Shown here piece after piece: positions 15,347-32,183 of a DNA stretch of 32,690 nt. A model generated the notes under the pieces. That model did not search any database and was not told the origin of the DNA. It saw only the letters and a program-made list of their open reading frames with translations. The stretch is from a virus: positions 1 through 32,690 of IMG/VR virus record IMGVR_UViG_3300042465_006006, one strand, 5' to 3'. Made by a program: the position numbers and the translations under genes. Numbering within the stretch: the stretch's first letter is position 1; every line of letters begins with the position of its first letter.

Positions 15347-16141
15347 ATGCCGACATATCTTCCGGCCAGCGGTTCTATCAACATCAATGGCGGCGATTCG
15401 CGCGCTATCAATAACATCTTTGGGCCCGCCAATGGCGTTCCTGCAACAGGCAATAACCTTTTGGCCTATGTCGGCGTGCGTTGGTATAAGGCAGACGCAT
15501 CGACGGGGACGTTCTCTGCGCCTGTGACCATGCCCGGCGACTTTTATGGCAAGGGGCCTATCAGCCCTGTGACGGGCGGCAGCTACAGCCTTTCGGCGCC
15601 TACTGGCGGCTCTTCTTCGGCTCCTTTCACCGTTCCCCTATATAGCATCATGACAATTACGCTTCGCGCTGGCGGCGGTGGCGGCGGTGGAGGGGACGGA
15701 AATAATAAAGCAGGAACCAACGGAACTCCGGGGAACACAAGTTCTTTTGCAGGAGGCTCTTATGGTTCTCCTGCTTTTGGCGGGTCTGGAGGAGCTTATA
15801 ACGGGGCCCCTAGCGGCCCGGCGGCATCAGGCGCCGGATCTGATGGAAACCCGCCCGGAGGAACTGGCGGCCCTTCTGCGTTCACCGGATATAATGCCGG
15901 CCAGCCGGGCGGCGCTGGCGGCAGGTCTGTCTTGACCCTTTACAATCCTGTTCCCGGAAATCCGCCTCCTTATGGCCCTCCGGTTGGGTCGACTGTGACG
16001 GTTACGGCTGGCGGCGGCGGCCCCGGCGGCGCTGGCGCTGAAGGTATTTCGCCTTGGCCTTGGTTCCCGGGGTTCATTATTAACTCTCCCGGCGGCGGCG
16101 GTTCTGGCGGCAACGGAAGCGTTTTTATTCAATGGTCTTGA
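15347..16141 (+). CDS. Glycine-rich tail appendage/adhesin-like protein
   Basis: A 264-residue protein directly after the fibre gene. The first 110 residues look like a beta-structured base (LPASGSININGGDSRAINNIFG, FSAPVTMPGDFYGKGP). From about residue 108 on it is dominated by Gly: an eight-Gly run, then GGSG/GGTGG/GGAGG blocks, and a terminal VFIQWS strand. This resembles phage adhesins that use packed polyglycine helices as receptor-binding tips, and Gly-rich C-terminal repeats in other tail proteins. It probably determines or tunes receptor recognition. The final 13 nt overlap a convergent gene on the other strand. The polyglycine-helix interpretation is inference. Confidence 0.65.
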   Translation: MPTYLPASGSININGGDSRAINNIFGPANGVPATGNNLLAYVGVRWYKADASTGTFSAPVTMPGDFYGKGPISPVTGGSYSLSAPTGGSSSAPFTVPLYSIMTITLRAGGGGGGGGDGNNKAGTNGTPGNTSSFAGGSYGSPAFGGSGGAYNGAPSGPAASGAGSDGNPPGGTGGPSAFTGYNAGQPGGAGGRSVLTLYNPVPGNPPPYGPPVGSTVTVTAGGGGPGGAGAEGISPWPWFPGFIINSPGGGGSGGNGSVFIQWS

Positions 16142-16335
16142 TTATCCGACCAAGTCTTCTTTGGCCGGATATAGCAAAGCGCATAATGGTCTTTGCAATA
16201 TGACCCTTGAGACGTTCTTTCCCCGCAATATCTGACGGGCTTATCTTCTTCAGATATTATGAATCGGCAGGTAAATAGGCCAAGACGCATGATCGAAATG
16301 CCTTTCTCGCGTTCTGGCAGCTTTGGCTTATACAT
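16129..16335 (-). CDS. GcrA-like zinc-knuckle protein
   Basis: A 68-residue protein that resembles the C-terminal part of GcrA, an alphaproteobacterial sigma70-interacting cell-cycle activator. A CRF(x)n...VRYCGE...GSYCKDHYALCY pattern presents Cys and His residues spaced for a small zinc site, as in GcrA's CRWP...FCG....YC..H region. GcrA's N-terminal helix-turn-helix is absent, so this could be a decoy or adaptor that touches sigma70, or simply a short relative. GGGAAAG lies 6 nt upstream of the ATG. It is the last gene of the leftward cluster, converging on the tail appendage gene with a 13-nt overlap. Family likeness is reasonable; function is inferred. Confidence 0.5.
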   Translation of the reverse strand: MYKPKLPEREKGISIMRLGLFTCRFIISEEDKPVRYCGERTSQGSYCKDHYALCYIRPKKTWSDNQDH

Positions 16336-16358
16336 ATCAATCTTTCCCGGATATATAA

Positions 16359-20771: not shown

Positions 20772-20793
20772 ACTTATTGATATGGAGATAGAT

Positions 20794-21282
20794 ATGGCTA
20801 AACAACGCAAAAATAAGAGCGGTTTTGTATTCGAGAACAAGATCGACTTCACCAATTGGGATTTCACTTCAATTGAACACCAGCTTGAAGATGCAATTCG
20901 AGTTTTTGAAGATTCTATGGAAAAAGCCGTAGAAAAATCGACAGAAGCTTTGCGTAGAAAAATAGACCGCGCAGATATGAGAGCCAGAAAAATTGTCGCA
21001 GAAGCTTTGCAAATTTCCTTTGAAAGGGAACTGACTACTTATTTCTGGGATGTCTATGGAGAGCCAGAAATAATTACAATTTATCTGTCTGATCTATGCG
21101 AGGACGGATATGAAATTAAGCTTGATCTAAAGGCGGCGATTAAAGAGGCGCTGATAAATCGTTGTGATAAAGATGGCTATGCATATGAAGAGTCAGAGTC
21201 CGCAATAGTTAAATTCGCTGACATGCTCAAAGAACTTGAGAATGAAGTTCGCACTGCGATCCGCCCTAAAGAGGAGGCGTGA
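20794..21282 (+). CDS. Hypothetical early helical protein
   Basis: A 162-residue protein. Start chosen at 20794 (MAKQRKNKSG) because GGAG lies 6 nt upstream. An ATG at 20782 in the same frame is part of the recurrent ATGGAGATAGATATG start cassette. The N-terminus is basic, then a long charged helix (HQLEDAIRVFEDSMEKAVEKSTEALRRKIDRADMRARKIVAEAL), then a mixed segment (YGEPEIITIYLSDLCEDGYEIKLDLKAAI) and a helical, acidic C-terminus. It is AT-richer than the virion genes. First gene of the rightward early operon, directly before a DNA methyltransferase. No family recognised. Confidence 0.55.
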   Translation: MAKQRKNKSGFVFENKIDFTNWDFTSIEHQLEDAIRVFEDSMEKAVEKSTEALRRKIDRADMRARKIVAEALQISFERELTTYFWDVYGEPEIITIYLSDLCEDGYEIKLDLKAAIKEALINRCDKDGYAYEESESAIVKFADMLKELENEVRTAIRPKEEA

Positions 21283-21283
21283 T

Positions 21284-21916
21284 ATGGCGCAGAACACTTC
21301 GCACGCTGTCATGGCGCAGCGCAAAGAACCATCAGATAGTTTGGATGACTTCCCAACGCCGCCTTGGGCGACACGCGCTCTTATTGAGCATGTGATCGGC
21401 AAGGAATGGTGCAAGGGCAGAGTATGCTGGGAGCCGGCTTCCAATCGTGGATATATGTCTCGCGCATTGCAAGAATATTTCCACTATGTTCTCGAAACTG
21501 ACATCGTTAATTATGGCCGTGGCGGCGTCTTCGATTTTCTTTCTTCTGAAGGGATGGTTACTAATCCTTCGATCCATTGGATAATCACAAACCCTCCCTT
21601 CAATAAAGCGCAGCAGTTTATTGAGAGGGCGCAGAAGATTGCCAATCAAGGCGTCGCTATGCTTGTGCGCACGTCCTTCCTCGAAAGCGTCATGCGCTAT
21701 CAGACGCTGTTCATGCATAACCCGCCTGACATCGTTGCGCAGTTCTCTGAGCGCGTCCCGATGGTGAAGGGACGCTATGATCCGAAGGCATCTACTGCTA
21801 CAAGTTATGCTTGGCTCGTTTGGTATTCTGGGCCGAAGCAAGCAAATAATCAGACCGTCCTGATGTGGATCCCTCCATGCAGGAAGCAATTAGAAAGAAC
21901 TACAGATCATGTCTAA
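21284..21916 (+). CDS. DNA adenine N6-methyltransferase-like protein
   Basis: Start at 21284, with GAGGAGG upstream; the earlier in-frame ATG at 21236 lies inside the previous gene. The 210-residue product carries NPPF at residues 103-106 (IITNPPFNKAQQF), the catalytic motif IV of adenine N6-methyltransferases. DFPTPPWATRALIEHV near the N-terminus is a segment common in phage DNA methyltransferases. The SAM-binding motif I, here WEPASNRGYMS, is altered from the usual EPAxGxG (Asn-Arg replace the first Gly), which may affect activity. It might protect phage DNA from restriction or mark it for host GANTC-reading proteins. The target site is unknown. It overlaps the resolvase gene by 8 nt. Confidence 0.75.
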   Translation: MAQNTSHAVMAQRKEPSDSLDDFPTPPWATRALIEHVIGKEWCKGRVCWEPASNRGYMSRALQEYFHYVLETDIVNYGRGGVFDFLSSEGMVTNPSIHWIITNPPFNKAQQFIERAQKIANQGVAMLVRTSFLESVMRYQTLFMHNPPDIVAQFSERVPMVKGRYDPKASTATSYAWLVWYSGPKQANNQTVLMWIPPCRKQLERTTDHV

Positions 21917-22370
21917 CGCCATTTGCTTTATGGGCGTCGATCCCGGCATATCGGGAGCAATTGCTTTCTATTACCCGGAACATCCCGACAACGTCGCGGT
22001 CTATGACATGCCGTCGATTGGCAAGGAAGTGAACTGCGCGGAATTGACGGCGCTCATAAGGCAATATCGTCCAGACTATGCAGTCGTCGAATCTGTGCAC
22101 GCGATGCCGAAGCAAGGTGTAAGCAGCAGTTTTAACTTTGGCATGTCTTATGGCATGGCGCGTGGCGTCATTGCAGCATGCGGCGTTCCGCAGCAGCTGG
22201 TGGCGCCAACAAAATGGAAGAAGTTCTTTGCGCTTACGTCCGACAAGGATACGTCTCGCCGGCTGGCGATATTGACTTGGCCGAACAGCGAGCACTTCAA
22301 TAGAAAGAAAGATGATGGCCGGGCGGAAGCGGCTTTGTTGGCTGTCTATGGGGCAAAGACGCAAGCATAA
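21909..22370 (+). CDS. RuvC-like Holliday-junction resolvase
   Basis: A 153-residue RNase H-fold nuclease. GVDPGISG carries the first metal Asp (Asp11), AVVES the second acid (Glu61), and the C-terminal KKDDGRAEAALLA the remaining acids (Asp135/Asp136). The order and spacing match RuvC-type crossover-junction endonucleases. It would resolve branched replication intermediates before packaging, working with the nuclease and putative SSB of the leftward operon. The start overlaps the methyltransferase gene by 8 nt. A strong hairpin follows the stop at once. Confidence 0.88.
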   Translation: MSNAICFMGVDPGISGAIAFYYPEHPDNVAVYDMPSIGKEVNCAELTALIRQYRPDYAVVESVHAMPKQGVSSSFNFGMSYGMARGVIAACGVPQQLVAPTKWKKFFALTSDKDTSRRLAILTWPNSEHFNRKKDDGRAEAALLAVYGAKTQA

Positions 22371-22376
22371 AAAAGA

Positions 22377-22398
22377 AAGCCCCGCGCGAACGGGGCTT
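22377..22398. terminator. Strong hairpin after the resolvase gene
   Basis: AAGCCCCG (22377-22384) pairs perfectly with CGGGGCTT (22391-22398) over a 6-nt loop. The T-rich tract lies on the minus-strand side (TCTTTTTT beyond 22377), so it is a textbook intrinsic terminator leftward. Rightward it has no T-run and may act as an mRNA 3'-end stabiliser or weak terminator. A fresh promoter follows at 22442. Confidence 0.6.
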
Positions 22399-22441
22399 AG
22401 TCAAAGAGAGGAAACGCACAATGAAGAAACCATTGAGCAAT

Positions 22442-22469
22442 TTGACTGATATCACATCCTGTGTATGAT
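22442..22469 (+). promoter_or_regulatory. Promoter with embedded dyad, upstream of the prim-pol operon
   Basis: TTGACT (22442-22447), 16-nt spacer, TATGAT (22464-22469). The -35 forms an inverted repeat with AGTCAA (22470-22475) just after the -10. The spacer contains a second dyad, CACA-tcc-TGTG. This looks like an operator overlapping the promoter. Placed after the hairpin that ends the resolvase message, it would restart transcription into the 22534 and prim-pol/helicase genes. Confidence 0.6.
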
Positions 22470-22533
22470 AGTCAATGACTCAATGCCGGCTTGCGAGGGA
22501 TCGTATAGCCTAGAGGGCGGTCAGGAGAAAATC

Positions 22534-22905
22534 ATGAGAAATACTTATGTCTACGAATTTTATGTAATGGATGACGGCTGGGAGATGTTCCCAACCGTTC
22601 AAGAGACAATCGTAAAAATTGGTGAAACAGTAAATAATTCTTTAGGACAGGATACTGGCTGTTTCTTGCTGGAAGACTTTATGGAATTTAGACATAGAGC
22701 CCTCAAAGCAGCAGATATTGCAGACACCAGCAAAGGGTTTTCAACTCCGATTTATACCATGCCTTTGGTCGACAATTTTAGACCATCCTACGCGCTTGCG
22801 TGGAAAGCTGCTAAGGGCGGATGGTGTATTGTTGTATCGGAAGAAAGATTGTTGTGGCTCGAAAATATTGAGAGCTGCAAGCTTAAAATAATCGACAATC
22901 TTTAA
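22534..22905 (+). CDS. Hypothetical protein upstream of primase-helicase
   Basis: A 123-residue product. Start chosen at 22534 (MRNTYVYEFYVMDDG) with AGGAG 6 nt upstream; an in-frame ATG at 22465 overlaps the promoter -10. The sequence reads as a mixed alpha/beta fold with conserved-looking aromatics (ALAWKAAKGGWCIVVSEERLLWLENIE). No family recognised. Its position between an early promoter and the prim-pol/helicase points to a replication accessory role. AT-richer than the virion genes. Confidence 0.55.
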   Translation: MRNTYVYEFYVMDDGWEMFPTVQETIVKIGETVNNSLGQDTGCFLLEDFMEFRHRALKAADIADTSKGFSTPIYTMPLVDNFRPSYALAWKAAKGGWCIVVSEERLLWLENIESCKLKIIDNL

Positions 22906-22919
22906 TAAGGTCTATTGAT

Positions 22920-25196
22920 ATGCTCTCTGACGCCGAACTTCAGGCGTTGATAGATGATGTCGAAAGCGATTTCCCATCATACTCATCATACGCAAAGCTA
23001 TATCGCCATTACGGCATGCAAGTCGTTCCCGCTAACTTCCCAAACGAAGTTAAGGAATGGAAGCGTCCACACTATGAATTAAAGTGGAAGCAATACCAAA
23101 AGACAATGATGGAAGACCAAGAGTTCGATGCACTCTATGGTCTTGGCGCAAAGTATGCTGGGCGCCAGAATATGGGTCTTATTACGGGCGTAAGCCCTCG
23201 ACGGATTGTCGTCGTCGATCTTGATGCGCATAAAAATCCAAAGGCTGAAATATGGTGGCAAGGCATACACGCCGACCACAACATGGGCATCATGTCGCAC
23301 ACTGTCGCGCAAAGAACAGGCGGCGGCGGAGAGCAACATTTCTTTATTGCGCCGGACGGTTTTATTTGTCCGACAAATAGAAACTCTTCGTGGGGCGTCG
23401 ATAGCCGCGGCGATGGCGGGTTCGCCATGCTGGCTCCTTCAAAGCATGAAAGCGGTAAGCTTTATGAATGGATGGAAGGTCAGGCGCCGTGGGAATGTGA
23501 TTTTGAAGTCATGCCCGAATGGATGTGCCGGGAAATAGAATCCATTCTTGGTGTCGGAATTTCTCATAGAGACTCCGGGTCTCGCACAAGAACAGATACG
23601 CCCGCACACAGATCCGATGAATGGGGAAAGATCGTAGACGGCCGCGAAGACCTTATGACAAAGATGGTCTTCAGATCTGTGCTTGGTCTTTATCGCGATT
23701 GCCCGATCATGCCGTCAGACCGCGAGCAGGCTGATGCAATGGAGAATTGCTTCCAGTCATATGTGATGGCAGTCGATACGCGAATTGAAGGATCGACAAA
23801 ATCCAAAGAGGATCTGCTTGAGCAAGAAGGCAGAGGTCGGTCGCTATTTATCAAGAAATGGCGCGCAACCATCCTTCAATGGGATGAAAAGATCAGCAAG
23901 GAAGCTGCGCGCCCTTTTGTAAAAGAGACACCTGAGAAGATAGATCCATTTTCTGAGCCGCCGCCAAGTGCCGGTTCGAAGGAAGAGAAGAAAGAAGAAG
24001 AACCTTCCACTAAAGAAGAAGAAAAGCCCGAAACAGACGACGACGAGTTTGCCCCGAAGAAGAAGAAACTTCTAAAGCTATACACAATTGACGAGATCGA
24101 ATCGTTTGGGCCGGTCAAGGCTCTGATCGAAGACACCGTCGCCGAAGGAAGCTTAGGGTTTATTTATGGGCCTCCCGGATGTGGCAAGACGTTCGTCGCC
24201 CTATCGATGGGCCTGAGTATCGCCTATGGCCGGGAGCATTGGCTATGGGACAAGAGAATCAATAGAGGCGGCCCCGTAATCTATATCAGCCTTGAAGGTA
24301 AGTCCGACCTTGGCAACCGCATCAAGGCTTGGAAGATCCATAATGGCATCTCCCATAATGATCAGAACTTCAGGGCTATATTCGATCAGGTGAACTTCAC
24401 CCGACAGGAAAGCATTAAGATATTTGTCGACTCTTTGGATGAATATATGTCGGCATACTCCCCGCCGTCCATGATCTTCATAGATACGGTTTCGAGGTCT
24501 ATCGCCGGCGGCGGGGAAAACGACGCAGAGGAGATATCGCTGTTCATTGAGACCTGCGGAAACCTCCAGAGGCGCTATTCCACAAACCTCACCGGGATCC
24601 ATCATACAGGCCGCTTTGGAACGAATATGCGCGGCTCCAGCGCCTTCGACGGCGGCGCCGACTTTATGTATCGGGTTGAGCGGGACAAGAAGGCTGGCCT
24701 GTCAGGATTGATCCATGCGGAGAAGATCAAGGCATACCCGGATATGTGGGAGATGCCCTTCAGGCTCGAAAAGATCACTCTGGATGACTTTGGCGCCCAA
24801 TCCAGCCTTGTCGCCACGTCTGAGCCTGAACAGGCCCCAGCTGGCGGTTCTGGGGCTTCTGAAGGCGGGTTCGGAGGTCATCAGGAGACCGGCTTTACGA
24901 CCATCGGCAGGAAGCTCCCTGATGCCGTTTGGAAGGCGATATTCGATGAGGTCGACCAAGCCAAACAGGAAGGTATTCCTTGGAGCGAGTTCAAGCAGTC
25001 AGGAAGCAGATACGCCGGAACGAGGATTATGGAGATTATTTATTCTCACGGGATCGACACAATGAACGAATCGGACGCTGATGCGATTGTTCGAAAGCTG
25101 ACCGGAAAACTTTACCTCGTCACCGTCGAATACATGCACAACAAGATGCTCAAGAAGGGTCTGGAAGTGAGAAACAGACCGTCTTTTAACGTGTGA
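22920..25196 (+). CDS. Bifunctional prim-pol and AAA helicase (RepA-like)
   Basis: A 758-residue replication protein. Residues about 20-200 are a bifunctional primase-polymerase (AEP) domain: VVVDLDAHK with the metal pair Asp100/Asp102, GGGGEQHFF with the active-site histidine, and AMLAPSKH. Residues about 343-385 form a Glu/Lys-rich linker. From about 395 is a RecA-fold helicase of the RepA/AAA_25 type: Walker A GPPGCGKT at 417-424, Walker B MIFIDT at 518-523, a GIHHTG sensor, and RGSSAFDGGADFMYRVER. It would open, unwind and prime phage DNA. The start is supported by AAGG and the recurrent ATTGATATG context. An iteron-like region follows directly. Confidence 0.88.
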   Translation: MLSDAELQALIDDVESDFPSYSSYAKLYRHYGMQVVPANFPNEVKEWKRPHYELKWKQYQKTMMEDQEFDALYGLGAKYAGRQNMGLITGVSPRRIVVVDLDAHKNPKAEIWWQGIHADHNMGIMSHTVAQRTGGGGEQHFFIAPDGFICPTNRNSSWGVDSRGDGGFAMLAPSKHESGKLYEWMEGQAPWECDFEVMPEWMCREIESILGVGISHRDSGSRTRTDTPAHRSDEWGKIVDGREDLMTKMVFRSVLGLYRDCPIMPSDREQADAMENCFQSYVMAVDTRIEGSTKSKEDLLEQEGRGRSLFIKKWRATILQWDEKISKEAARPFVKETPEKIDPFSEPPPSAGSKEEKKEEEPSTKEEEKPETDDDEFAPKKKKLLKLYTIDEIESFGPVKALIEDTVAEGSLGFIYGPPGCGKTFVALSMGLSIAYGREHWLWDKRINRGGPVIYISLEGKSDLGNRIKAWKIHNGISHNDQNFRAIFDQVNFTRQESIKIFVDSLDEYMSAYSPPSMIFIDTVSRSIAGGGENDAEEISLFIETCGNLQRRYSTNLTGIHHTGRFGTNMRGSSAFDGGADFMYRVERDKKAGLSGLIHAEKIKAYPDMWEMPFRLEKITLDDFGAQSSLVATSEPEQAPAGGSGASEGGFGGHQETGFTTIGRKLPDAVWKAIFDEVDQAKQEGIPWSEFKQSGSRYAGTRIMEIIYSHGIDTMNESDADAIVRKLTGKLYLVTVEYMHNKMLKKGLEVRNRPSFNV

Positions 25197-25223
25197 TTTT
25201 GGAGAGCCGAAATGAACGTATAC

Positions 25224-25328
25224 GCGGGGGTTAAGTCATTGTTTTTATTTGTGCGCGGGGGTCTGCGGGGGTCTGTGTTTTTATTTGCGGGGGTTAAGTC
25301 ATTGATTCTACAGGGTCGCGGGGGTCTG
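25224..25328 (+). repeat. GCGGGGGT direct repeats (iteron-like), origin candidate
   Basis: Five copies of GCGGGGGT start at 25224, 25255, 25265, 25287 and 25318. Two extend to GCGGGGGTTAAGTCATTG (25224-25241 and 25287-25304) and three to GCGGGGGTCTG. The long copies are 63 bp apart, as are the first and last short copies (25255 and 25318). AT-rich TTTTTATTT tracts separate the G-rich blocks. Iterated sites next to a helicase gene, with an adjoining AT tract, are how many replicons mark their origin. No function is proved. A 75-codon frame through this stretch shows no protein features. Confidence 0.6.
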
Positions 25329-25340
25329 AGGTTTCCCCCC

Positions 25341-25355
25341 GCCCCCTACGGGGGC
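25341..25355. repeat. Perfect GCCCCC-TAC-GGGGGC hairpin
   Basis: A 6-bp GC stem with a 3-nt loop, immediately right of the GCGGGGGT repeats and left of a CTCGCTTCGCCC/GCGCTTGCGC-rich stretch. It could be a transcription terminator without T-run or a replication fork structure. The whole gap 25197-25469 is otherwise without a credible gene. Confidence 0.5.
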
Positions 25356-25412
25356 TCCCCCCTTCCTGCTCGCTTCGCCCTGCGCTTGCGCTCCGGGCTC
25401 GCTGCGCGGCGC

Positions 25413-25442
25413 TTGACAGACGCCGCCGGCGTGCGTTAGCCT
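25413..25442 (+). promoter_or_regulatory. Rightward promoter with spacer palindrome
   Basis: CGCTTGACA (-35 TTGACA at 25413-25418), then after 18 nt TAGCCT (25437-25442). The spacer contains a perfect palindrome, ACGCCG-C-CGGCGT (25420-25432), an operator candidate. The CGCTTGAC context is shared with the two minus-strand promoters at 28733 and 29748. It would drive the genes from 25470 on. Confidence 0.5.
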
Positions 25443-25469
25443 CGACGGCGTTGATATTGAGATTAGGTT

Positions 25470-25742
25470 ATGACTGGTAATCGCAAGGATGGCGTTATCG
25501 CCAAAACTCGTCAGTGGGTGCTAATCGAACGACCGGGCGAAGGCGAGAACGGCTGGATGAACATTTGGCTGTCGGCGCGTAGTTCGGATGTTCTTAGGAA
25601 AGACTTCCTGATCAGTTTTAATGTTCGAACGGGCAGGTTCAGCGACTGCCCGGCGTGGAAGAAGCTGAACACCGGATACCCCGATATGGCGGATTGGGCC
25701 ATAGAGGCCGTTCGGAAGAGATATCGATTGAGAGGAGATTGA
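25470..25742 (+). CDS. Hypothetical protein
   Basis: A 90-residue protein (MTGNRKDGVIAKTRQWVLIERPGEG) with a strand-rich, Trp-containing first half and a C-terminal helix (MADWAIEAVRKRYRLR). No family recognised. It follows the iteron-like gap and its promoter, and is the first of three closely spaced genes (1-nt gap, then 1-nt overlap). A weak AGG element precedes the ATG. Confidence 0.5.
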   Translation: MTGNRKDGVIAKTRQWVLIERPGEGENGWMNIWLSARSSDVLRKDFLISFNVRTGRFSDCPAWKKLNTGYPDMADWAIEAVRKRYRLRGD

Positions 25743-25743
25743 G

Positions 25744-25968
25744 ATGATCAAGGCAAAAGGGCCGTTCCCTTCGAATAAGCATCCCAGCAAGCGCACCGGC
25801 GATTCGATTGGATCGGCCAGTCTGGACGCCCCGCCGCCAAAGCTGCGGTCGCTACACAGCATCCGTTACGATGCGCGGCTCAAGGATGAATTATACGGCG
25901 ACGCAGCCAAGGCGGCGAAGGCCAAGGTGTCGCTCCCGAAGTTCTCATGGGACAAGGGAGGCGAGTAA
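25744..25968 (+). CDS. Hypothetical basic protein
   Basis: A 74-residue protein rich in Lys, Pro and Ala (FPSNKHPSKRTGDS, AAKAAKAKVSLPKF). It is preceded by GGAGATTGAGATG, one of the recurrent start cassettes. No domain recognised. The stop overlaps the next start by 1 nt. Composition suggests an unstructured nucleic-acid-contacting protein, which is only a guess. Confidence 0.5.
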   Translation: MIKAKGPFPSNKHPSKRTGDSIGSASLDAPPPKLRSLHSIRYDARLKDELYGDAAKAAKAKVSLPKFSWDKGGE

Positions 25969-26645
25969 TGGCGAAGAGACCGTCAAGACCGCCGCCGCCG
26001 TCCGATAGATCAATACCTGTCGCAAGGGAGCCGGCGGCGCCGTGGCTTATTTCAAATGGGACTTACCTATCTGGTAGAGCCGCAATAGATGGCGCAGATG
26101 CGTTGGAAGTAGAATTAGAACTGAAATGGGGACGCGGAAGATTGCCGCTTCTGGTGTCTCAGGAACTTCGAGAAAAGTTTTATAGGCAAAAATATTTATT
26201 CAGTCATGCCCGGTGGAAGGGACAGCTAATTGATGTCCAGCGAGAATCGGAGCGCATGATTAAGGCATGGAAGGCGCTTGATAAGGCGGCGACAGAAGCC
26301 GGGTGCGTTCCTATAGACCCTGCCGTGTTTGAGGTGACGCTTGAAGACGGCACGGTCGCGGCAATTGTGAGGGAACCGGATCTTGTAAACAAAGTCATGG
26401 CTGATGGTCGGCGCGTAAACGTATATTCTCTTGAAGAGATAGGGCGCCTGATATTTTCATTTAAGGAAGTATTGGCGGTCAAGGAAGCGTTCCCCGGAGC
26501 AGAGGTCGTCCCTACAAAGATGAAAGTTGTAAATGCTCTTCATCAGCCATTAGACGGCGAAGGAGAGGGTATTCTTGACCCCGGCACGCCATTGGATGCT
26601 GTTGACGGATTCAACATAAAGGTCGGAGATGACATCTCATTTTAG
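25968..26645 (+). CDS. Hypothetical protein, early region
   Basis: A 225-residue product. Start chosen at 25968 (MAKRPSRPPPPS) because it forms a TAATG coupling with the previous gene and GGGAGGCGAG lies upstream; an earlier ATG at 25947 is inside that gene. After a Pro-rich N-terminus come helical segments (YRQKYLFSHARWKGQLIDVQRESERMIKAWKALDKAATEAG) and a beta-rich C-terminal half (VFEVTLEDGTVAAIVREPDL, VNVYSLEEIGRLIFSFKEVL). The family is not recognised. A clear terminator follows, so this is the last gene of its unit. Confidence 0.55.
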   Translation: MAKRPSRPPPPSDRSIPVAREPAAPWLISNGTYLSGRAAIDGADALEVELELKWGRGRLPLLVSQELREKFYRQKYLFSHARWKGQLIDVQRESERMIKAWKALDKAATEAGCVPIDPAVFEVTLEDGTVAAIVREPDLVNKVMADGRRVNVYSLEEIGRLIFSFKEVLAVKEAFPGAEVVPTKMKVVNALHQPLDGEGEGILDPGTPLDAVDGFNIKVGDDISF

Positions 26646-26660
26646 GGGTGGTATAAGACA

Positions 26661-26697
26661 AAGGCCAGCCGCTGTTGACGCAGCGCTGGCCTTTTAA
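26661..26697 (+). terminator. Rho-independent terminator
   Basis: AAGGCCAGC (26661-26669) pairs with GCTGGCCTT (26685-26693). An inner GCTG/CAGC stem closes a 6-nt loop, and a TTTT run follows. It ends the transcript of the 25470-26645 genes and stands just ahead of the HNH endonuclease gene. Confidence 0.85.
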
Positions 26698-26721
26698 CCT
26701 CTAACCCAATCGTGGTGGGCT

Positions 26722-27246
26722 ATGGCTAAAAAACATTTACCTGACATTGAGACTTTGCGTCAACTGCTTCGGTATGATCCCGAAGCAGGAAAATTGTATT
26801 GGTTGGATAGACAAAACAATAAATCATTCAATACTCGTTTTTCTGGTAAAGAAGCTGGAACAGCGAAAGATAGATATGGATATCTTCAAATAGAAATTAT
26901 TAATATAAACACAAGATCACACATAATTGCTTGGGCATTGCATTACGGATTATATCCATCTGATGAATTAGATCATATAAATGGAGACAGAGCGGATAAT
27001 AGAATAGTTAATTTAAGGGAAGCGACTAGATCGCAAAATAATATGAACACGGCATTGGCTAAAAATAATACTAGCGGGGCCAAGGGAGTGCACTTTTTCA
27101 AGGTAACTAATAAATGGAGTAGTTTTATAAAAATAAATAGAAAATCTATTCATCTTGGATATTTTCTAACATTTGAAGAAGCTGTTGACGCTCGTAAAAA
27201 AGCAGAGATAAGATATCACGGTGAATACGCGAGGAAATCGCAATGA
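26722..27246 (+). CDS. HNH homing endonuclease with AP2 DNA-binding domain
   Basis: A 174-residue selfish endonuclease. The HNH domain spans about residues 50-110, with SHIIAWALHYG (His67), DHINGD (84-89) and NLREAT (from Asn98). An AP2-type DNA-binding domain follows at about 118-165 (SGAKGVHFFKVTNKWSSFIKINRKSIHLGYFLTFEEAVDAR). It would cut cognate DNA lacking the insertion, spreading the element to related phages. The gene is clearly more AT-rich than its surroundings, a sign of recent transfer. It sits right after a strong terminator, and its stop overlaps the next start by 4 nt. Confidence 0.9.
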   Translation: MAKKHLPDIETLRQLLRYDPEAGKLYWLDRQNNKSFNTRFSGKEAGTAKDRYGYLQIEIININTRSHIIAWALHYGLYPSDELDHINGDRADNRIVNLREATRSQNNMNTALAKNNTSGAKGVHFFKVTNKWSSFIKINRKSIHLGYFLTFEEAVDARKKAEIRYHGEYARKSQ

Positions 27247-27440
27247 CGCAATCCCGTTCTGATCTTCAATCATTGGTCAATAGCACAATCGAAATTGATG
27301 TTGCGATCAACCGCGCAAAGCGTCTTCTCGTCGACGCCGAATGGCAGGAAGATGAAGAGACGATCAAGTCATTGCGTAATGAGATCGACCGCCTTGAAAG
27401 ACAAAAGGCGCTTGGTCAAACGCATGACGTTCTTTGGTGA
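27243..27440 (+). CDS. Small coiled-coil protein, unknown function
   Basis: A 65-residue, highly charged, helical protein (IDVAINRAKRLLVDAEWQEDEETIKSLRNEIDRLERQKAL) predicted by eye as one long coiled coil. It overlaps the HNH gene by 4 nt (ATGA). Its composition resembles the phage backbone rather than the AT-rich endonuclease, so it may predate that insertion. No family recognised. It is followed by a 140-bp gap ending in a bidirectional terminator. Confidence 0.5.
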   Translation: MTQSRSDLQSLVNSTIEIDVAINRAKRLLVDAEWQEDEETIKSLRNEIDRLERQKALGQTHDVLW

Positions 27441-27547
27441 ATGCGAATTGTAGGCGCCCGCTCCTGCAATCTATGTATTAGCGGGTAGATATAAAATACG
27501 ACGGAGAACGGAATCGAGAACACACAAGCTGACATCGTGTAACAAAA

Positions 27548-27573
27548 GGCCAGAGGACGCCATGCCTCTGGCC
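27548..27573. terminator. Bidirectional terminator between convergent genes
   Basis: GGCCAGAGG (27548-27556) pairs with CCTCTGGCC (27565-27573) around an 8-nt loop. It is flanked by AACAAAA on the left and GTTTGTTTT on the right, so each strand sees a T-rich tail. It sits between the rightward gene ending at 27440 and the leftward gene ending at 27581. Confidence 0.85.
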
Positions 27574-27580
27574 GTTTGTT

Positions 27581-27829
27581 TTATATTGTTTCGACAATTG
27601 CGAACGCCTTAACAATTAAGGCGTCTTTTTTGCATTCTTCTTCATCGCGTCCATTTTCCATCCATATGTTAATTCTGGCGCGGGCGTATTCTGTAGCGTC
27701 TTTTTTTGTCCGAAAAATTGCAGGAGAATGGAGGAACAATATTCTTCCCGGATAGGTTATTGAATCTGCTCCAATGAATTGTCCATTCCGATTTACAACA
27801 GTCCATCCTGTCTTTTCTGATGTTGCCAT
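27581..27829 (-). CDS. Hypothetical protein
   Basis: An 82-residue product. Start taken at 27829 (MATSEKTGWTVVNRNG) because AAGGAGAG lies 5 nt upstream; a longer frame from 27889 would overlap the HTH gene. Strands dominate the first half (GWTVVNRNGQFIGADS), then a helix (TKKDATEYARARINIWMENG) and an acidic/Lys segment. It is the last gene of the leftward small-gene cluster, right before the bidirectional terminator. No family recognised. Confidence 0.55.
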   Translation of the reverse strand: MATSEKTGWTVVNRNGQFIGADSITYPGRILFLHSPAIFRTKKDATEYARARINIWMENGRDEEECKKDALIVKAFAIVETI

Positions 27830-27831
27830 AT

Positions 27832-28068
27832 TCACTCTCCTTGTCTGGCTTCTTGTATTACTTCCATCTCGACTGCTTGAACCAGCCAATCAATTGACAG
27901 CTGTTTATTATCAAGGGCAGCAAGAATAAGAACAACAGAGCGAGGTATGCCATTAACGCCTCGTAGCCAAGAGTTAACCTGACGCGGCGTGACGCCTGCA
28001 ATGGTCGCGACATCTGTGTTCGTTATCCCTAGTTTATCAAGAACGATGCGAAGCTGATTTGGCGTCAC
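27832..28068 (-). CDS. XRE-type helix-turn-helix regulator
   Basis: A 78-residue product. Start set at GTG 28068, which has AAGGAG 9 nt upstream; a TTG at 28092 is the alternative. The sequence NQLRIVLDKLGITNTDVATIAGVTPRQVNSWLRG is a Cro/CI-like helix-turn-helix (helix 2 'TDVATIAGV', recognition helix 'PRQVNSWLRG'), followed by a helical dimerisation tail. It would bind a DNA operator. It is the only clear sequence-specific DNA-binding regulator in the window, so it is the natural candidate for the dyads at 28733, 29748 or 20669. It overlaps its upstream neighbour by 32 nt. Confidence 0.75.
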   Translation of the reverse strand: MTPNQLRIVLDKLGITNTDVATIAGVTPRQVNSWLRGVNGIPRSVVLILAALDNKQLSIDWLVQAVEMEVIQEARQGE

Positions 28069-28264
28069 GGTATTCGACTCCTTTAGAGACAAGAGAATTG
28101 ATCACATGCTGCTCGCTCCAAAGCGTGCTGGCGTTCATGAAGTCGCGCCCTGTGAAGACGCAGAACAGGCGCCATAGAACAGGGTTCACTTCGTAGCACG
28201 GCTCGTTAGAAGCAAGGATGTAGGGATGGCCTTCGACATTGTGGTCATAGATATCAAGCGACAT
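28037..28264 (-). CDS. Hypothetical protein
   Basis: A 75-residue protein (MSLDIYDHNVEGHPYILASNEPCYEVNPVLWRLF). No family recognised. Its ATG lies 3 nt after the stop of the tiny membrane protein gene upstream, whose 3' end supplies GAGG for its ribosome-binding site, so the two are translationally coupled. It overlaps the start of the HTH gene by 32 nt. Confidence 0.55.
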   Translation of the reverse strand: MSLDIYDHNVEGHPYILASNEPCYEVNPVLWRLFCVFTGRDFMNASTLWSEQHVINSLVSKGVEYRDAKSASHRS

Positions 28265-28267
28265 AGT

Positions 28268-28369
28268 TCACCTCATAAACATCAAGACAGCGAAGAACAC
28301 GGTCAATCCAAAGATCACGATGGATCCAAGGAACGACACGAGCGACACAAGAAAACGCATGAACGTCAT
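28268..28369 (-). CDS. Tiny single-TM membrane protein (33 residues)
   Basis: A 33-codon frame with GGAGGCGTA upstream of the ATG. The product is almost wholly hydrophobic: MTFMRFLVSLVSFLG, then IVIFGLTVFFAVLMFM, ending in a single Arg. It is one membrane helix with positive charge at both ends. It sits between a terminator hairpin and the next gene, whose ribosome-binding site it provides. Phages often use such peptides to alter the host membrane, as small antiholins or exclusion proteins. It is too small to identify further. Confidence 0.55.
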   Translation of the reverse strand: MTFMRFLVSLVSFLGSIVIFGLTVFFAVLMFMR

Positions 28370-28375
28370 TACGCC

Positions 28376-28406
28376 TCCAAAAAGAAAAGGGCCGCTTGCG
28401 CGGCCC
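28376..28406 (-). terminator. Intrinsic terminator, leftward
   Basis: GGGCCGC and GCGGCCC (28389-28395 and 28400-28406) form a perfect 7-bp stem with a 4-nt loop. Leftward the stem is followed by TTTTCTTTTT. It ends the message of the gene stopping at 28416. The next gene's GGAGG begins right at the end of the T-run. Confidence 0.85.
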
Positions 28407-28415
28407 CTCTTGTTA

Positions 28416-28697
28416 TTAGGCCGCGACACGAACCGCAGCCTTTACGCGGATGGTGGCGACCGGCGTCTCTTTGGTCACGAGCGCCAGATCTTCCTTGGAC
28501 AGCAGTTCGCGAACAAGCGTCGTGTCGATGCTGGCGCGAACCGTGGTGTTCACCGAAACCAGAAAGCGGTCGCCGTTGATCTGGTCAACGCCAGCCGCCA
28601 GAATCTGCTCACGCAGGTCGTCAACGCGCTTCTTAGCGGCGTCGGCTTCCGCCTTGGCGTAAGCATAGAGATCGGCGAGGGAAGCGAGGTCGGTCAT
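28416..28697 (-). CDS. Hypothetical helical protein, early region
   Basis: A 93-residue product. Start chosen at 28697 (MTDLASLADLYAYAK), with GGAG 6 nt upstream within the cassette ATGGAGACTGATATG; a start at 28709 would add four residues. The N-terminal half is a charged helix (AEADAAKKRVDDLREQILAAGVD). The C-terminal half is beta-like (NGDRFLVSVNTTVRASIDTTLVRELLSKEDLALVTK). No firm family name; this kind of protein recurs in phage early regions. It is driven by its own promoter at 28733-28761 and ended by the terminator at 28376-28406. Confidence 0.6.
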   Translation of the reverse strand: MTDLASLADLYAYAKAEADAAKKRVDDLREQILAAGVDQINGDRFLVSVNTTVRASIDTTLVRELLSKEDLALVTKETPVATIRVKAAVRVAA

Positions 28698-28732
28698 ATC
28701 AGTCTCCATCGGTTATCAATTTCAATAAAAAT

Positions 28733-28761
28733 AAGGTATCGGAACTTTCTTCCTCAGTCAA
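28733..28761 (-). promoter_or_regulatory. Leftward promoter/operator, copy 1
   Basis: Read leftward, TTGACT (28756-28761) in a CGCTTGACT context, 17-nt spacer, TACCTT (28733-28738). The spacer holds GGAA-gaaag-TTCC, a dyad. The 29-bp block 28736-28764 matches 29751-29779 at 27 positions. The shared sequence makes a common regulator likely. Confidence 0.65.
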
Positions 28762-28809
28762 GCGCTTTGGAAGAAAATTCCGAAAATATTTTCAGCGGTC
28801 GTTTTGTGG

Positions 28810-29058
28810 TTACTTTTTGGTTGAGGTCTTGCGGATCTTCTTGGCGACAGCCTCAATGACCGTCGACGCCGTCGTCTTCGTCTCCTTGGCGGCAGCTGGC
28901 GCCTTGGGCTTCGCGGCATAGTCCAGAACCATAAAACTGACGATGACGCCATCGTCCCGCGTCTCTGCCTGCTTGGCTTCCAGTTCGGCCTGCGTCAGGT
29001 CATGCTCAATGAGGCGAATCACATCGCCGTCGCTCATATGGGTTTCAATCACTCGCAT
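28810..29058 (-). CDS. Hypothetical protein with Lys/Ala-rich tail
   Basis: An 82-residue protein. The N-terminal 50 residues mix helix and strand (SDGDVIRLIEHDLTQAELEAKQAETRDDGVIVSFMVLDY). The C-terminus is Ala/Lys-rich and likely disordered (AKPKAPAAAKETKTTASTV...KKIRKTSTKK), a composition like nucleoid-binding tails. AGGAGG lies at good spacing upstream of the ATG, directly after a terminator T-run. No family recognised. Confidence 0.5.
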   Translation of the reverse strand: MRVIETHMSDGDVIRLIEHDLTQAELEAKQAETRDDGVIVSFMVLDYAAKPKAPAAAKETKTTASTVIEAVAKKIRKTSTKK

Positions 29059-29069
29059 CGCTTCCTCCT

Positions 29070-29095
29070 AAAAAGAGACCCGCCGAAGCGGGTCT
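29070..29095 (-). terminator. Intrinsic terminator with UUCG loop, leftward
   Basis: AGACCCGC (29076-29083) and GCGGGTCT (29088-29095) form a perfect 8-bp stem. Leftward the loop reads TTCG, a very stable tetraloop, and CTTTTT follows. It ends the message of the gene stopping at 29103. The ribosome-binding site of the next gene (AGGAGG) begins within 1 nt of the T-run. Confidence 0.85.
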
Positions 29096-29102
29096 GGGAA
29101 GT

Positions 29103-29327
29103 TTACCATCGATGCTGGTATTTATCCATGATGCGGTCGACGTCGAACATGAAGTCCTTATACTCGACGTCTGTCATGCGCTGCTGCAGAAACTTCAAAG
29201 CCTCGTCCAGCATCTTCGTCGCCTGTTGGTTGTCGGGATGCGTCCCGGCCAAGATCAGGGCCGTATGCTGTATGGCGCTCGTCGTGTAAGCTTCCAGTTC
29301 AAACGCGAAGTCTTTCATGCGCGACAT
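29103..29327 (-). CDS. Hypothetical helical protein
   Basis: A 74-residue product from ATG 29327 (MSRMKDFAFELEAY), with GGAG at ideal spacing inside the cassette ATGGAGATTGATATG (29325-29339). It is mostly helical (AIQHTALILAGTHPDNQQATKMLDEALKFLQQRMTD). No family recognised. One of a group of small leftward genes sharing the same start signal, so probably regulated together. Confidence 0.55.
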   Translation of the reverse strand: MSRMKDFAFELEAYTTSAIQHTALILAGTHPDNQQATKMLDEALKFLQQRMTDVEYKDFMFDVDRIMDKYQHRW

Positions 29328-29370
29328 ATCAATCTCCATATAGTCTCATCAGTGCCGGCATAACCGACAG

Positions 29371-29386
29371 ACGGGCCGAAGCCCGT
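29371..29386. terminator. Short hairpin with CGAA/TTCG loop
   Basis: ACGGGC (29371-29376) and GCCCGT (29381-29386) form a 6-bp stem with a TTCG loop when read leftward. It lies just after the small gene ending at 29394. There is no clear T-run, so termination is uncertain; it may stabilise the message end. Confidence 0.4.
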
Positions 29387-29393
29387 TTCGACT

Positions 29394-29546
29394 TCAAGGC
29401 AAATAGACGTTCTGCCCCTTGATCGTGCAGCCGGGGAAGTATGCCTTCACCTCCTGCAAGTGGAAGCTGTATGCGCCTAAGTTCTCACCGTCGAACGCAT
29501 AGATGTTCCAGATCTTGGTCTTCGAATTTTTGCGAACCTTGATCAT
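29394..29546 (-). CDS. Small hypothetical protein (50 residues)
   Basis: A 50-codon frame from ATG 29546 (MIKVRKNSKTKIWNIYAFDG). It is preceded by GGAG at 6-nt spacing in the cassette ATGGAGATTGATATG (29544-29558). The A of the first ATG overlaps the TAA of the upstream gene. The protein ends with a TIKGQNVYLP strand and is basic, with a beta-like layout. No family recognised. Supported by its start signal, tight packing and the hairpin after its stop. Confidence 0.6.
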   Translation of the reverse strand: MIKVRKNSKTKIWNIYAFDGENLGAYSFHLQEVKAYFPGCTIKGQNVYLP

Positions 29547-29557
29547 ATCAATCTCCA

Positions 29558-29713
29558 TTACTTATCTTTGCGAAGGACGAAGGTGTATTTGCCGTCAGAC
29601 CACTGCTTCTGGCTGGCGACGACATATCCGCGAGCGCGGTATTCTGCGACGATCTTGTTGCAGTAGCCGACCGTGCCAGAAACAATCTTTTCGAAGTAGG
29701 GCTGCTCGTTCAT
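29558..29713 (-). CDS. Small hypothetical protein (51 residues)
   Basis: A 51-codon frame from ATG 29713 (MNEQPYFEKIVSGTVGYCNK). An in-frame ATG at 29725 would give 55 residues and belongs to the variant cassette ATGGATATTGAAATG. The product has a helical first half and a strand-rich end (VVASQKQWSDGKYTFVLRK). It is the first gene downstream of the promoter/operator at 29748 and couples directly to the 29546 gene. No family recognised. Confidence 0.55.
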   Translation of the reverse strand: MNEQPYFEKIVSGTVGYCNKIVAEYRARGYVVASQKQWSDGKYTFVLRKDK

Positions 29714-29747
29714 TTCAATATCCATCGACATCAGTTACAGTAAAATT

Positions 29748-29776
29748 GTTGTATCGGAAGTTTCTTCCTAAGTCAA
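29748..29776 (-). promoter_or_regulatory. Leftward promoter/operator, copy 2
   Basis: Read leftward, CGCTTGACT (-35 TTGACT at 29771-29776), 17-nt spacer, TACAAC (29748-29753). The spacer contains the perfect dyad GGAAG-AAA-CTTCC, better than in copy 1. The block 29751-29779 differs from 28736-28764 at only two of 29 positions. It also lies upstream of the rightward gene at 29807, so a bound regulator could act in both directions. Confidence 0.65.
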
Positions 29777-29806
29777 GCGGATATTTCATAGGGAAGGGGA
29801 TTGACA

Positions 29807-30028
29807 GTGAACGACGAGTTAAGAGACATTGTCGCCGCTGCGGTATGCAGATTCAATGTTGAGATTGATAGAAATGAAATGGCAGCTTCAATCTCCGACA
29901 GGAAGTGCGACGCAACTTGCGACTATTGCCGCTTGCAAGCGGAATATATCGTCACACAGATAGAGGAGCAGAAAAATGGCAAAAAACAATCACTTGGAGA
30001 CTATTGTCCAGCGCATAGAGAAGCTTGA
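29807..30028 (+). CDS. Hypothetical Cys-containing protein
   Basis: A 73-residue product from GTG 29807, chosen because AAGGGG lies 7 nt upstream; the TTG at 29801 is too close to it. The first part is helical (DELRDIVAAAVCRFNVEIDRNEMAASI). A CDATCDYCRL...DYCPAH cluster could hold a zinc ion. The 3' end overlaps the GapR-like gene by 53 nt in another frame, a long overlap that makes the reading less certain. No family recognised. Confidence 0.5.
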   Translation: MNDELRDIVAAAVCRFNVEIDRNEMAASISDRKCDATCDYCRLQAEYIVTQIEEQKNGKKQSLGDYCPAHREA

Positions 30029-30269
30029 AGAAGAGAAAGCCGCCCTCGCTGAAGACATCAAGAGCGTATATTCTGAAGCAAAATCAGATGGTTATGATAC
30101 AAAGATCTTGAAGCAGATCATCGCCATGCGTAAAAAGGACGCCGCCAAGGTCGCCGAAGAGAAGGCGCTCCTTGCGACCTACATGGAAGCGCTGGGCATG
30201 CTCGCCGACCTGCCGCTGGGGCAAGCAGCCCTGAAAGCGTCAGGGGCTACTGCCGACGAAGAGTTCTAA
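29976..30269 (+). CDS. GapR-like DUF2312 DNA-binding protein
   Basis: A 97-residue protein matching the DUF2312/GapR pattern. It has a first coiled-coil helix (IVQRIEKLEEEKAALAEDIKSVYSEAKSDGYDTKILKQIIAMRKKD) and a second helical part (KVAEEKALLATYMEALGML). GapR is an alphaproteobacterial nucleoid protein that clamps overtwisted, AT-rich DNA ahead of forks. A phage copy could support phage replication or interfere with host chromosome control. AGGAG precedes the ATG at 7-nt spacing. It is followed by a stem-loop and the GIY-YIG gene. Confidence 0.85.
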   Translation: MAKNNHLETIVQRIEKLEEEKAALAEDIKSVYSEAKSDGYDTKILKQIIAMRKKDAAKVAEEKALLATYMEALGMLADLPLGQAALKASGATADEEF

Positions 30270-30282
30270 TACCTACATATAG

Positions 30283-30312
30283 TGGTCGGGATGTGATACC
30301 ATGTCCCGACCA
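30283..30312 (+). repeat. Perfect 9-bp stem-loop ahead of the GIY-YIG gene
   Basis: TGGTCGGGA (30283-30291) and TCCCGACCA (30304-30312) are exact inverted repeats around a 12-nt loop. The ribosome-binding site of the next gene (GGAG at 30315) starts 2 nt after the stem, so the fold could limit ribosome access. No T-run follows, so it is not a standard terminator. Confidence 0.65.
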
Positions 30313-30324
30313 TAGGAGATTGAG

Positions 30325-30858
30325 ATGTTTATTTATGTCCTGAAGGATCCAGATACAGGTGACGTCAGATATGTCGGGAAAACAAATAACCCTGCAAAGC
30401 GTATGTCTGGTCACATGGCTGCTCAAAGCGATAGAAATTTGCCGTCAGTTCGATGGGTAAGATCCTTAAAAACGAATAACAAAAAGCCTGTTATGGAAAT
30501 AATAGAAGAAACCGACGATTGGGAAATTTGCGAAAGAAAATGGATAAAATTTTATAGGAGTAAATACGATAATTTATTAAATCTTGATGATGGTGGAATT
30601 GTAGAAATCCATGCATATCGCGAAAATCGGAATAAAAGCGCTTCTAAAAAATACATGACTGTAATGATCAAGCTTTCTAACTTGCCTGCAATGTCAGAAG
30701 AATCGAAGCTTGCTTGGAAGCGAATTAAGGATCTGATTCGGTCTTTGAGGATTAGCATCTTAAATGAAATGGGCGCAGCAGCTGTTGAATATTTCGATGA
30801 TTGTATATATTCAGAGTTTATAGAGAGGCACCCTAAAAGCTTCAGGATATTGGCATGA
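30325..30858 (+). CDS. GIY-YIG homing endonuclease
   Basis: A 177-residue protein with an N-terminal GIY-YIG nuclease domain. IYVLKDPDTG holds the 'GIY' strand and VRYVGKT the 'YIG' strand. The catalytic Arg region NPAKRMSGHM and a later Glu-rich stretch (IIEETDDWEICERKWIKFY) follow. The C-terminal part is basic and helical (AWKRIKDLIRSLRISI) and probably contacts DNA. It is AT-rich compared with the flanking terminase gene, as expected of a mobile element. The start is in cassette GGAGATTGAGATG. The stop overlaps the small terminase start by 4 nt, so it has inserted without breaking the operon. Confidence 0.88.
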   Translation: MFIYVLKDPDTGDVRYVGKTNNPAKRMSGHMAAQSDRNLPSVRWVRSLKTNNKKPVMEIIEETDDWEICERKWIKFYRSKYDNLLNLDDGGIVEIHAYRENRNKSASKKYMTVMIKLSNLPAMSEESKLAWKRIKDLIRSLRISILNEMGAAAVEYFDDCIYSEFIERHPKSFRILA

Positions 30859-31331
30859 CAAAACCAACAGGAAAGCCGGTCGGAAGGCCGTCTAAATACA
30901 CAGAAGAACTGGCAGACCTTATCTGCGAGAGGATGATCAACGGTGAGCACATCGTTCAGATCTGCCAAGACGAAGAAATGCCAAGCCGGCCGACTGTTTA
31001 TAAATGGATGGCGGAAAAGCCAGAATTTCATACACGCATCGCGCGTGCGCGCGAGGGGCTGGCGGATCACGTTGCGTGGCAGATCCTAGACATGGCGAGC
31101 AAGTCAACCAGCGAGACGGCGAACGCGGATCGGGTGAAGCTGGCGGCATGGCAGTGGCATGCTGCCCGTTTGTCGCCTAAAAAATACAGCGAGAAGGTTA
31201 TCACCGAATTGAGCGGGCCTGATGGCGCCCCGGTTCAGGTCGAGACGAAGACGATTGATTCGCGCGCCCTGACGCCTGAGCAACGCGAAGCGCTGCGTGG
31301 CGTTTTGATGGCCGTCAAAGAAAGCGCGTGA
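30855..31331 (+). CDS. Terminase small subunit
   Basis: Recognises the packaging site and hands DNA to the large terminase. The 158 residues have the small-terminase layout. A basic N-terminus (TKPTGKPVGRPSKY) leads to a helix-turn-helix (ADLICERMINGEHIVQICQDEEMPSRPTVYKWM), and a helical oligomerisation part follows (FHTRIARAREGLADHVAWQILDMAS...ADRVKLAAWQWHAARLSP). The C-terminus KTIDSRALTPEQREALRGVL is a common tail for interaction with the large subunit. Overlap with the GIY-YIG gene (ATGA) and with the next gene shows tight coupling. The large subunit is not in the window. Confidence 0.88.
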   Translation: MTKPTGKPVGRPSKYTEELADLICERMINGEHIVQICQDEEMPSRPTVYKWMAEKPEFHTRIARAREGLADHVAWQILDMASKSTSETANADRVKLAAWQWHAARLSPKKYSEKVITELSGPDGAPVQVETKTIDSRALTPEQREALRGVLMAVKESA

Positions 31332-31615
31332 TGATAGAAATCCATGATCCAGACAACGAGATCCCGCAGGAGCAGAAAGACCGTGTAGCCGAAATGGCTG
31401 AAGAGACGCTCGACGTCTTTTACGATACGGCAGAAACGCCAGTCGAAATGCTGCAGGCGCTCGCCGCCGTTACGTCGTGCGTTCTGTCGGAAAACATGGT
31501 GTCGAAAGAAAGCGCGATTACATCTCTTCAGATCTTGGTCAACGCAATCATTTTTACATTGAACGACGCAGAGCAAGATGGTAACGTCAATTGGAATCAG
31601 AAGATAAAACATTGA
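31331..31615 (+). CDS. Hypothetical acidic protein
   Basis: A 94-residue acidic, mostly helical protein (EQKDRVAEMAEETLDVFYDTAETPVEMLQALAAVTSCVL). Its ATG at 31331 overlaps the terminase stop by 1 nt; a GTG at 31328 would give one more residue. No strong ribosome-binding site is visible, consistent with reinitiation. Located in the packaging region but not recognised. Confidence 0.55.
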   Translation: MIEIHDPDNEIPQEQKDRVAEMAEETLDVFYDTAETPVEMLQALAAVTSCVLSENMVSKESAITSLQILVNAIIFTLNDAEQDGNVNWNQKIKH

Positions 31616-31622
31616 GATTGAT

Positions 31623-32183
31623 ATGGACAAGGATGAAGCGCTGCGCCGGAGACGGGCACGTGAAAAGCGCTGGAGAGAAAACAATCCAGATAAGCTGAAG
31701 AAGCAGCGCGAGAACTGGAACAAGGCTCGCCGCGATAAATACGCTGTCATGGCGCAAGATCCAGCCTACATCGAAGCGAAAGCACAGCGCGAGCAAGAGC
31801 GCCGGCGCAAGCTTAAAGAGAATTGGGCAGAGCGCAGGAAAACGCTCGTGCGCAAGAAGCCAAAGACGCCAAAGCAATATATGTCGCCTGAGCAATATGC
31901 GGCGTATCTCGAAAAATGCCGGAAGAAGGCTAAACTCAAGCGCGACATCAAGCGCGCATCGATTACGGAAGAAGAGCGTCAACGCCATTGGGTGCGCTGG
32001 CGCGAGAAGATCGTCAAAGCCAATCGCGAACGTGCGCGTCTTGAGCGCCTGAAGCGCGAGCAGGAAGCGCCGCGGGAGAAGAAGCCGCCGGTAGTGCGCG
32101 TTAAGCAAGAAAAGCCAAAGGTAGTTCAGCCTGTCAGAAAACCGGGTAGACTGCTGTCGCTTATGGGATGGAGGGGATGGTGA
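31623..32183 (+). CDS. Highly basic Arg/Lys-rich protein
   Basis: A 186-residue protein, strikingly rich in Arg, Lys, Glu and Gln (EALRRRRAREKRWRENNP, QREQERRRKLKENWAERRKT, KKAKLKRDIKRASITEEER). It is predicted by eye to be one long charged helix with a disordered Pro/Lys C-terminus (EAPREKKPPVVRVKQEKPKVVQPVRKPG). Such composition fits nucleic-acid binding or a scaffold-like role, but no family is recognised. It starts with cassette ATTGAGATTGATATG (31611-31625). Its 3' end overlaps the next gene in another frame. Confidence 0.55.
   Translation: MDKDEALRRRRAREKRWRENNPDKLKKQRENWNKARRDKYAVMAQDPAYIEAKAQREQERRRKLKENWAERRKTLVRKKPKTPKQYMSPEQYAAYLEKCRKKAKLKRDIKRASITEEERQRHWVRWREKIVKANRERARLERLKREQEAPREKKPPVVRVKQEKPKVVQPVRKPGRLLSLMGWRGW

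Follow-up and report, generated by a model that had tools for sequence, protein, structure and literature searches.

A clade-specific start sequence at unrelated small accessory genes of alphaproteobacteria-type phages, associated with gene-content switches and predicted type II hammerhead ribozymes

The 32,690-bp IMG/VR virus record IMGVR_UViG_3300042465_006006 was analyzed over its full length (hereafter, the window), which revealed that a 15-base cassette, ATGGAGATTGATATG, recurs at gene starts on both strands. With up to three mismatches allowed, nine matches were identified, compared with a mean of 1.02 and a maximum of 3 in 100 dinucleotide-shuffled sequences. Eight of the nine are located at gene starts, and the only other match lies at 673 on the minus strand with three mismatches. 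The original prediction, made from the letters alone, had listed this recurrent 15-mer at a series of starts on both strands, with partial forms at 22920 and 16335, and had proposed the count against shuffled sequence; every start that it named was recovered within three mismatches, both partial forms were found (ATTGATATG and GATTGATATG, respectively), and each gene-start cassette is sense-oriented to its own gene. The cassettes and the elements recognized near them are as follows:

16333–16342, minus strand: partial form GATTGATATG; start of gene 16129–16335
20782–20796, plus strand: cassette ATGGAGATAGATATG, one mismatch; start codon at 20794; gene-switch joint relative to locus L127
22914–22922, plus strand: partial form ATTGATATG; start of the primase/helicase gene
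25732–25746, plus strand: degenerate cassette GAGGAGATTGAGATG, three mismatches; start codon at 25744; kept in locus L128
28695–28709, minus strand: cassette ATGGAGACTGATATG, one mismatch; start codon at 28697
28733–28761, minus strand: promoter-like TTGACT-17 nt-TACCTT with the imperfect spacer palindrome GGAAGAAAGTTCC, upstream of the cassette at 28709
29325–29339, minus strand: exact cassette; start codon at 29327
29342–29393, minus strand: predicted type II hammerhead ribozyme (RF02276 match), occupying the space from the stop codon of gene 29394–29558 to the cassette at 29339
29544–29558, minus strand: exact cassette; start codon at 29546; shares bases with the stop codon of the gene before it (TAATG); joint relative to L128
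29711–29725, minus strand: diverged cassette ATGGATATTGAAATG, two mismatches; start codon at 29713; kept in L128
29748–29776, minus strand: promoter-like TTGACT-17 nt-TACAAC with the perfect palindrome GGAAGAAACTTCC, upstream of the cassette at 29725
30313–30327, plus strand: degenerate cassette TAGGAGATTGAGATG, three mismatches; start codon at 30325 of a GIY-YIG-like gene; switch joint relative to L128
31611–31625, plus strand: cassette ATTGAGATTGATATG, one mismatch; start codon at 31623

A gene without the cassette also lies inside this array (28810–29058, minus strand), preceded by a hairpin, GACCCGCTTCGGCGGGTC, and a strong AGGAGG site.

The exact 15-mer is present in at least 120 loci of viral contigs, several of which contain two to seven copies. 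Among the matches listed, most copies are located at the start of an open reading frame and many loci encode homologues of window genes; single exact copies also occur in other viral contigs. Relatives were fetched by protein similarity, avoiding selection on the motif, with the primase/helicase, the family of gene 26040–26642 and the GapR-like protein; the profiles for the latter two lean towards carriers because they were seeded with loci found through the motif. These relatives (2.1 Mb) contain 64 exact and 68 one-mismatch copies of the cassette, and none of either for the reversed motif. The cassette occurs in all 34 loci nearest to the window, some of which are near-identical contigs, versus four of 47 more distant loci sharing the gene. 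The genes that it starts fall into approximately 150 families by single-linkage clustering (median length 93 aa), and it is conserved across a GC range of 46–61%, with GGAG and the second of its two ATGs as the most constrained positions. Between these, positions 10 and 11 are nearly fixed and positions 9 and 12 are variable. The search in other phages of the group, which had been suggested earlier, thus finds the motif restricted to one clade, and the proposals that the genes are unrelated and that they share a selected signal are supported by the family number and the reversed-motif counts. Among alphaproteobacteria-type phages, the 15-mer represents a start-associated sequence that is specific to one clade and is found at many unrelated small accessory genes.

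The GapR-like protein, together with relatives in Bradyrhizobium, Xanthobacteraceae and Magnetospirillum genomes, points to an alphaproteobacterial host. These genomic relatives do not carry the cassette, and no comparable k-mer at starts was found in related cassette-free phages. Among cultured phages, nothing matched the window at the DNA level or the 26040–26642 family at the protein level; MW202711 encodes a GapR relative and contains a single stray motif match. Two contigs binned as Opitutae (Verrucomicrobiota) metagenome-assembled genomes (L286 and L289) carry both the cassette and the phage gene and are probably mis-binned phage contigs.

As previously noted, GGAG lies 6 nt before the second ATG (GGAG-N6-ATG), within the 5–9 nt taken here for a Shine–Dalgarno sequence, and another in-frame ATG lies upstream. 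The second ATG shows no change in any of the 68 copies with one mismatch and hardly any in those with two, GGAG is almost without change in the same 68, and Shine–Dalgarno four-mers are depleted before the first ATG (4 of 298 versus 23 of 298 in a shifted window, p = 0.0002). Because of this near invariance, the GGAG at 6 nt and the depletion before the first ATG, the second ATG is likely the main start. Initiation at the second ATG alone leaves the codon-like pattern of substitutions unaccounted for. When the cassette is read as ATG GAG ATT GAT ATG, changes in the spacer affect 87 of 278 third codon positions versus 19 of 556 first and second positions (p = 1e-28), so that Ile-Asp is encoded in 101 of 139 copies and Ile-Glu in 17. 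The first ATG is present in 298 of 343 copies, and first and second positions are less constrained where it is missing (15 of 132 changed versus 19 of 556, p = 0.0006). The first ATG may therefore also be used to some extent. A tentative alternative is that both in-frame ATGs are used, producing unrelated proteins in MEID-extended and short forms, with selection on an MEI(D/E) peptide. Against this stand the depletion just described, the greater variability of third positions also in copies without the first ATG, and the second ATG itself, which never varies in one-mismatch copies as a residue of a selected peptide would be expected to. An in-frame TAG replaces the first ATG in four copies with up to two mismatches and in the window copy at 30313, so a start there cannot be general. 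Of the earlier suggestion that proteins may begin with MEIDM, the N-terminus stands as a possibility, and the data favor the second ATG as the main start.

Two other explanations of the conserved bases were set aside. A leaderless start at the first ATG would need a promoter within a few nucleotides, whereas the visible promoters have their −10 element approximately 10–45 nt before it. Extended pairing of ATTGAT with the 3′ end of 16S rRNA was rejected because it would involve the T residues at positions 9 and 12, which vary among copies.

The elements recognized upstream of cassettes were of three kinds: a promoter-like sequence containing a palindrome, a GC-rich hairpin and a predicted type II hammerhead. 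The hammerhead of the window ends 2 nt before the cassette at 29339, and its self-cleavage is predicted between 29370 and 29369. It scores 29.4 bits against Rfam RF02276 (gathering cut-off 37) with a complete core, and a close homologue in L153 reaches 38.4 bits, above the cut-off. The catalytic core is complete in the hammerhead copies, with three stems in type II order; across 14 distinct copies, 224 of 224 cells are paired, and in 10 of 16 pairs both partners have changed. A model built from these copies, which include the window copy itself, scores the latter at 76.7 bits and finds strong matches only in loci bearing the cassette. Thirteen of 15 hammerheads or more (counting a degenerate copy in L276) end 0–3 nt before the cassette or a clear derivative of it, and hammerhead and cassette have been duplicated together in tandem. 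A pseudoknot of loop I with the cassette was judged by eye to be inconsistent across copies. Type II hammerheads of RF02276 have a CUGAUGA and GAAA core, closed stems I and III and an open stem II (PMC3088659), and the present copies are alike in all of these; HHphage in the haloviruses HF1/HF2 is a phage hammerhead located 13 nt before a start codon (PMC3088659). Different from that family, the present copies end 0–3 nt from the common start cassette and occur as tandem copies between small genes, and the window copy falls below the Rfam cut-off. Our search of literature after 2012 on hammerheads before phage start codons found nothing closer.

Promoter-like sequences of the form TTGAC...TATA box with a palindrome in the spacer precede 31 of 126 cassette starts versus 23 of 290 other starts (p = 1e-5). 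The palindrome differs between phages, which suggests phage repressors that co-vary with it; examples are GTGCGAAAATCGCAC, AGACGAATTTTATTCGTCT and CGAACTGAGTTCG among L137, L157, L159, L214, L244 and others. In the window, the GGAAGAAACTTCC and GGAAGAAAGTTCC versions lie at 29756–29776 and 28741–28761, respectively. An HTH protein is encoded at 27832–28092. By a crude criterion, a GC-rich hairpin followed by a pyrimidine-rich stretch showed no enrichment over other starts. Most cassette copies have no recognized promoter or ribozyme upstream, and the upstream flanks are varied, apart from those of some copies duplicated with the hammerhead. The earlier idea of a duplicated leader accounts only in part for this pattern.

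Cassettes are also sites where gene content changes between close relatives. At 29544, the window and L128 are 97.6% identical over 330 nt once 1,086 bp of L128, running from one cassette copy to another, are omitted; without this jump, the two sides match at 28% and 22%. At 30313, the left flanks of the window and L128 are identical at 78 of 80 positions, but the right flanks diverge, into a GIY-YIG-like gene in the window and a small-terminase-like gene in L128. Relative to L127, the window is approximately 97% identical over the 6 kb left of 20782 and 25% identical on the right. With hammerhead sites excluded and ordinary starts drawn from the same loci, an unrelated right flank after a near-identical left flank was found in 9 of 46 cassette clusters versus 5 of 160 ordinary-start clusters (p = 0.0006), and the reverse comparison gave 8 of 46 versus 11 of 172 (p = 0.03), counts that are small and that come from the same data as the joint hypothesis. 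Microhomology at any repeated start signal could mimic such a joint without selection for it. Two AT-rich genes resembling HNH (26722–27246) and GIY-YIG (30325–30858) endonucleases are probably mobile, and the latter begins exactly at the cassette where L128 carries a different gene.

We consider it probable that the cassette is a start module repeated along an array of accessory genes, which doubles as homology for gene gain, loss and exchange. The 30S subunit would bind GGAG and initiate at the second ATG, so that every gene would carry the same self-contained initiation module. Its repetition along the array would allow homologous or annealing recombination from copy to copy, by which genes could be deleted, inserted or swapped with each start left intact. 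Different expression units may be fitted upstream: a type II hammerhead, a GC-rich hairpin, or a promoter with an operator-like palindromic spacer. By cleaving the RNA between cistrons, the ribozyme would separate co-transcribed genes; the upstream message would then end in the stem III hairpin, and the stem I hairpin, with a 5′-OH, would form a leader before the module. The original interpretation is supported in part, as to a selected signal shared among genes, and had missed the gene-exchange joints, the hammerhead before 29339 and the palindrome promoters before 28709 and 29725.

Conservation beyond GGAG, and the presence of one sequence at many small accessory genes, would also fit a RegA- or RegB-like RNA-binding regulator that acts on the cassette at the start codon to control a set of early genes. 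We regard this as unlikely: no candidate regulator was identified, and the free variation at positions 9 and 12 fits codon wobble at least equally well. Still bolder, and quite improbable, is the reading in which dozens of unrelated early proteins carry a common N-terminal MEID tag when started at the first ATG and also exist in a short form from the second, the same 15 bases being kept both as a tag-and-start module and as a permanent joint at which operons cut up by hammerheads exchange gene cassettes. A pure recombination boundary or a recently duplicated leader, having no role in expression, would account for the gene switches and the tandem duplication of hammerhead and cassette; this is very improbable in view of the strict placement at starts, the GGAG spacing, the invariant ATG and the position-specific constraint that persists in divergent phages. 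Chance or ordinary ribosome-binding-site composition is hardly credible, even though GGAG and ATG are generic and single exact copies occur elsewhere in viral contigs, because composition fails to explain 64 and 68 copies against none for the reversed motif, an excess confined to one clade and accompanied by fixed spacer positions 10 and 11.

Lambdoid phages have short conserved boundary sequences between genes, at joints where mosaic exchange occurs. The cassette differs from these in being itself the start module and in being repeated within one genome. As a start module with joint homology, it would give phage mosaicism a concrete element open to testing: a working start signal that doubles as exchange homology, through which swapped genes would arrive ready for translation. 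Literature on conserved upstream sequences linked to phage mosaicism was searched, and nothing closer was found. The hammerheads add a natural context for type II ribozymes, namely cistron boundaries directly before a shared start.

The nearest known match is found in cluster K mycobacteriophages, which carry start-associated sequences (SAS/ESAS), short asymmetric 13-bp sequences at unrelated gene starts with the consensus GGGATAGGAGCCC, located 3–9 bp upstream of the start; some of these are preceded by a promoter whose inverted repeat differs in sequence between subgroups, and a role in translation is suspected (PMC3203893; PMC11373665). The cassette is similar in being a short conserved sequence at many unrelated gene starts of one phage group and in having a subset with an upstream promoter and inverted repeat (31 of 126 cassette starts versus 23 of 290 others; in the window, 28733–28761 and 29748–29776). 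In contrast, its conserved sequence ATGGAGATYGANATG includes the start and shares only the GGAG core with the SAS/ESAS consensus. It also has a second in-frame ATG, codon-like wobble, upstream hammerheads and gene switches at the element, and its phages are of Alphaproteobacteria type, whereas those with SAS/ESAS are mycobacterial. The cassette resembles the cluster K SAS in layout, yet it is not a member, because its sequence, its position relative to the start and its phage group all differ; with it, the unexplained start-associated sequences known from mycobacteriophages gain a counterpart in a separate phage lineage.

Two further features of the window were recorded. G-rich direct repeats (GCGGGGGTTAAGTCATTG and GCGGGGGTCTG) at 25212–25439, between the primase/helicase gene and gene 25470, possibly represent an origin or a regulatory region. 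A weak match to the suhB/mmgR sRNA family (26.9 bits, cut-off 41) at 22363–22434 on the minus strand is antisense to the hairpin region that follows gene 21909–22370.
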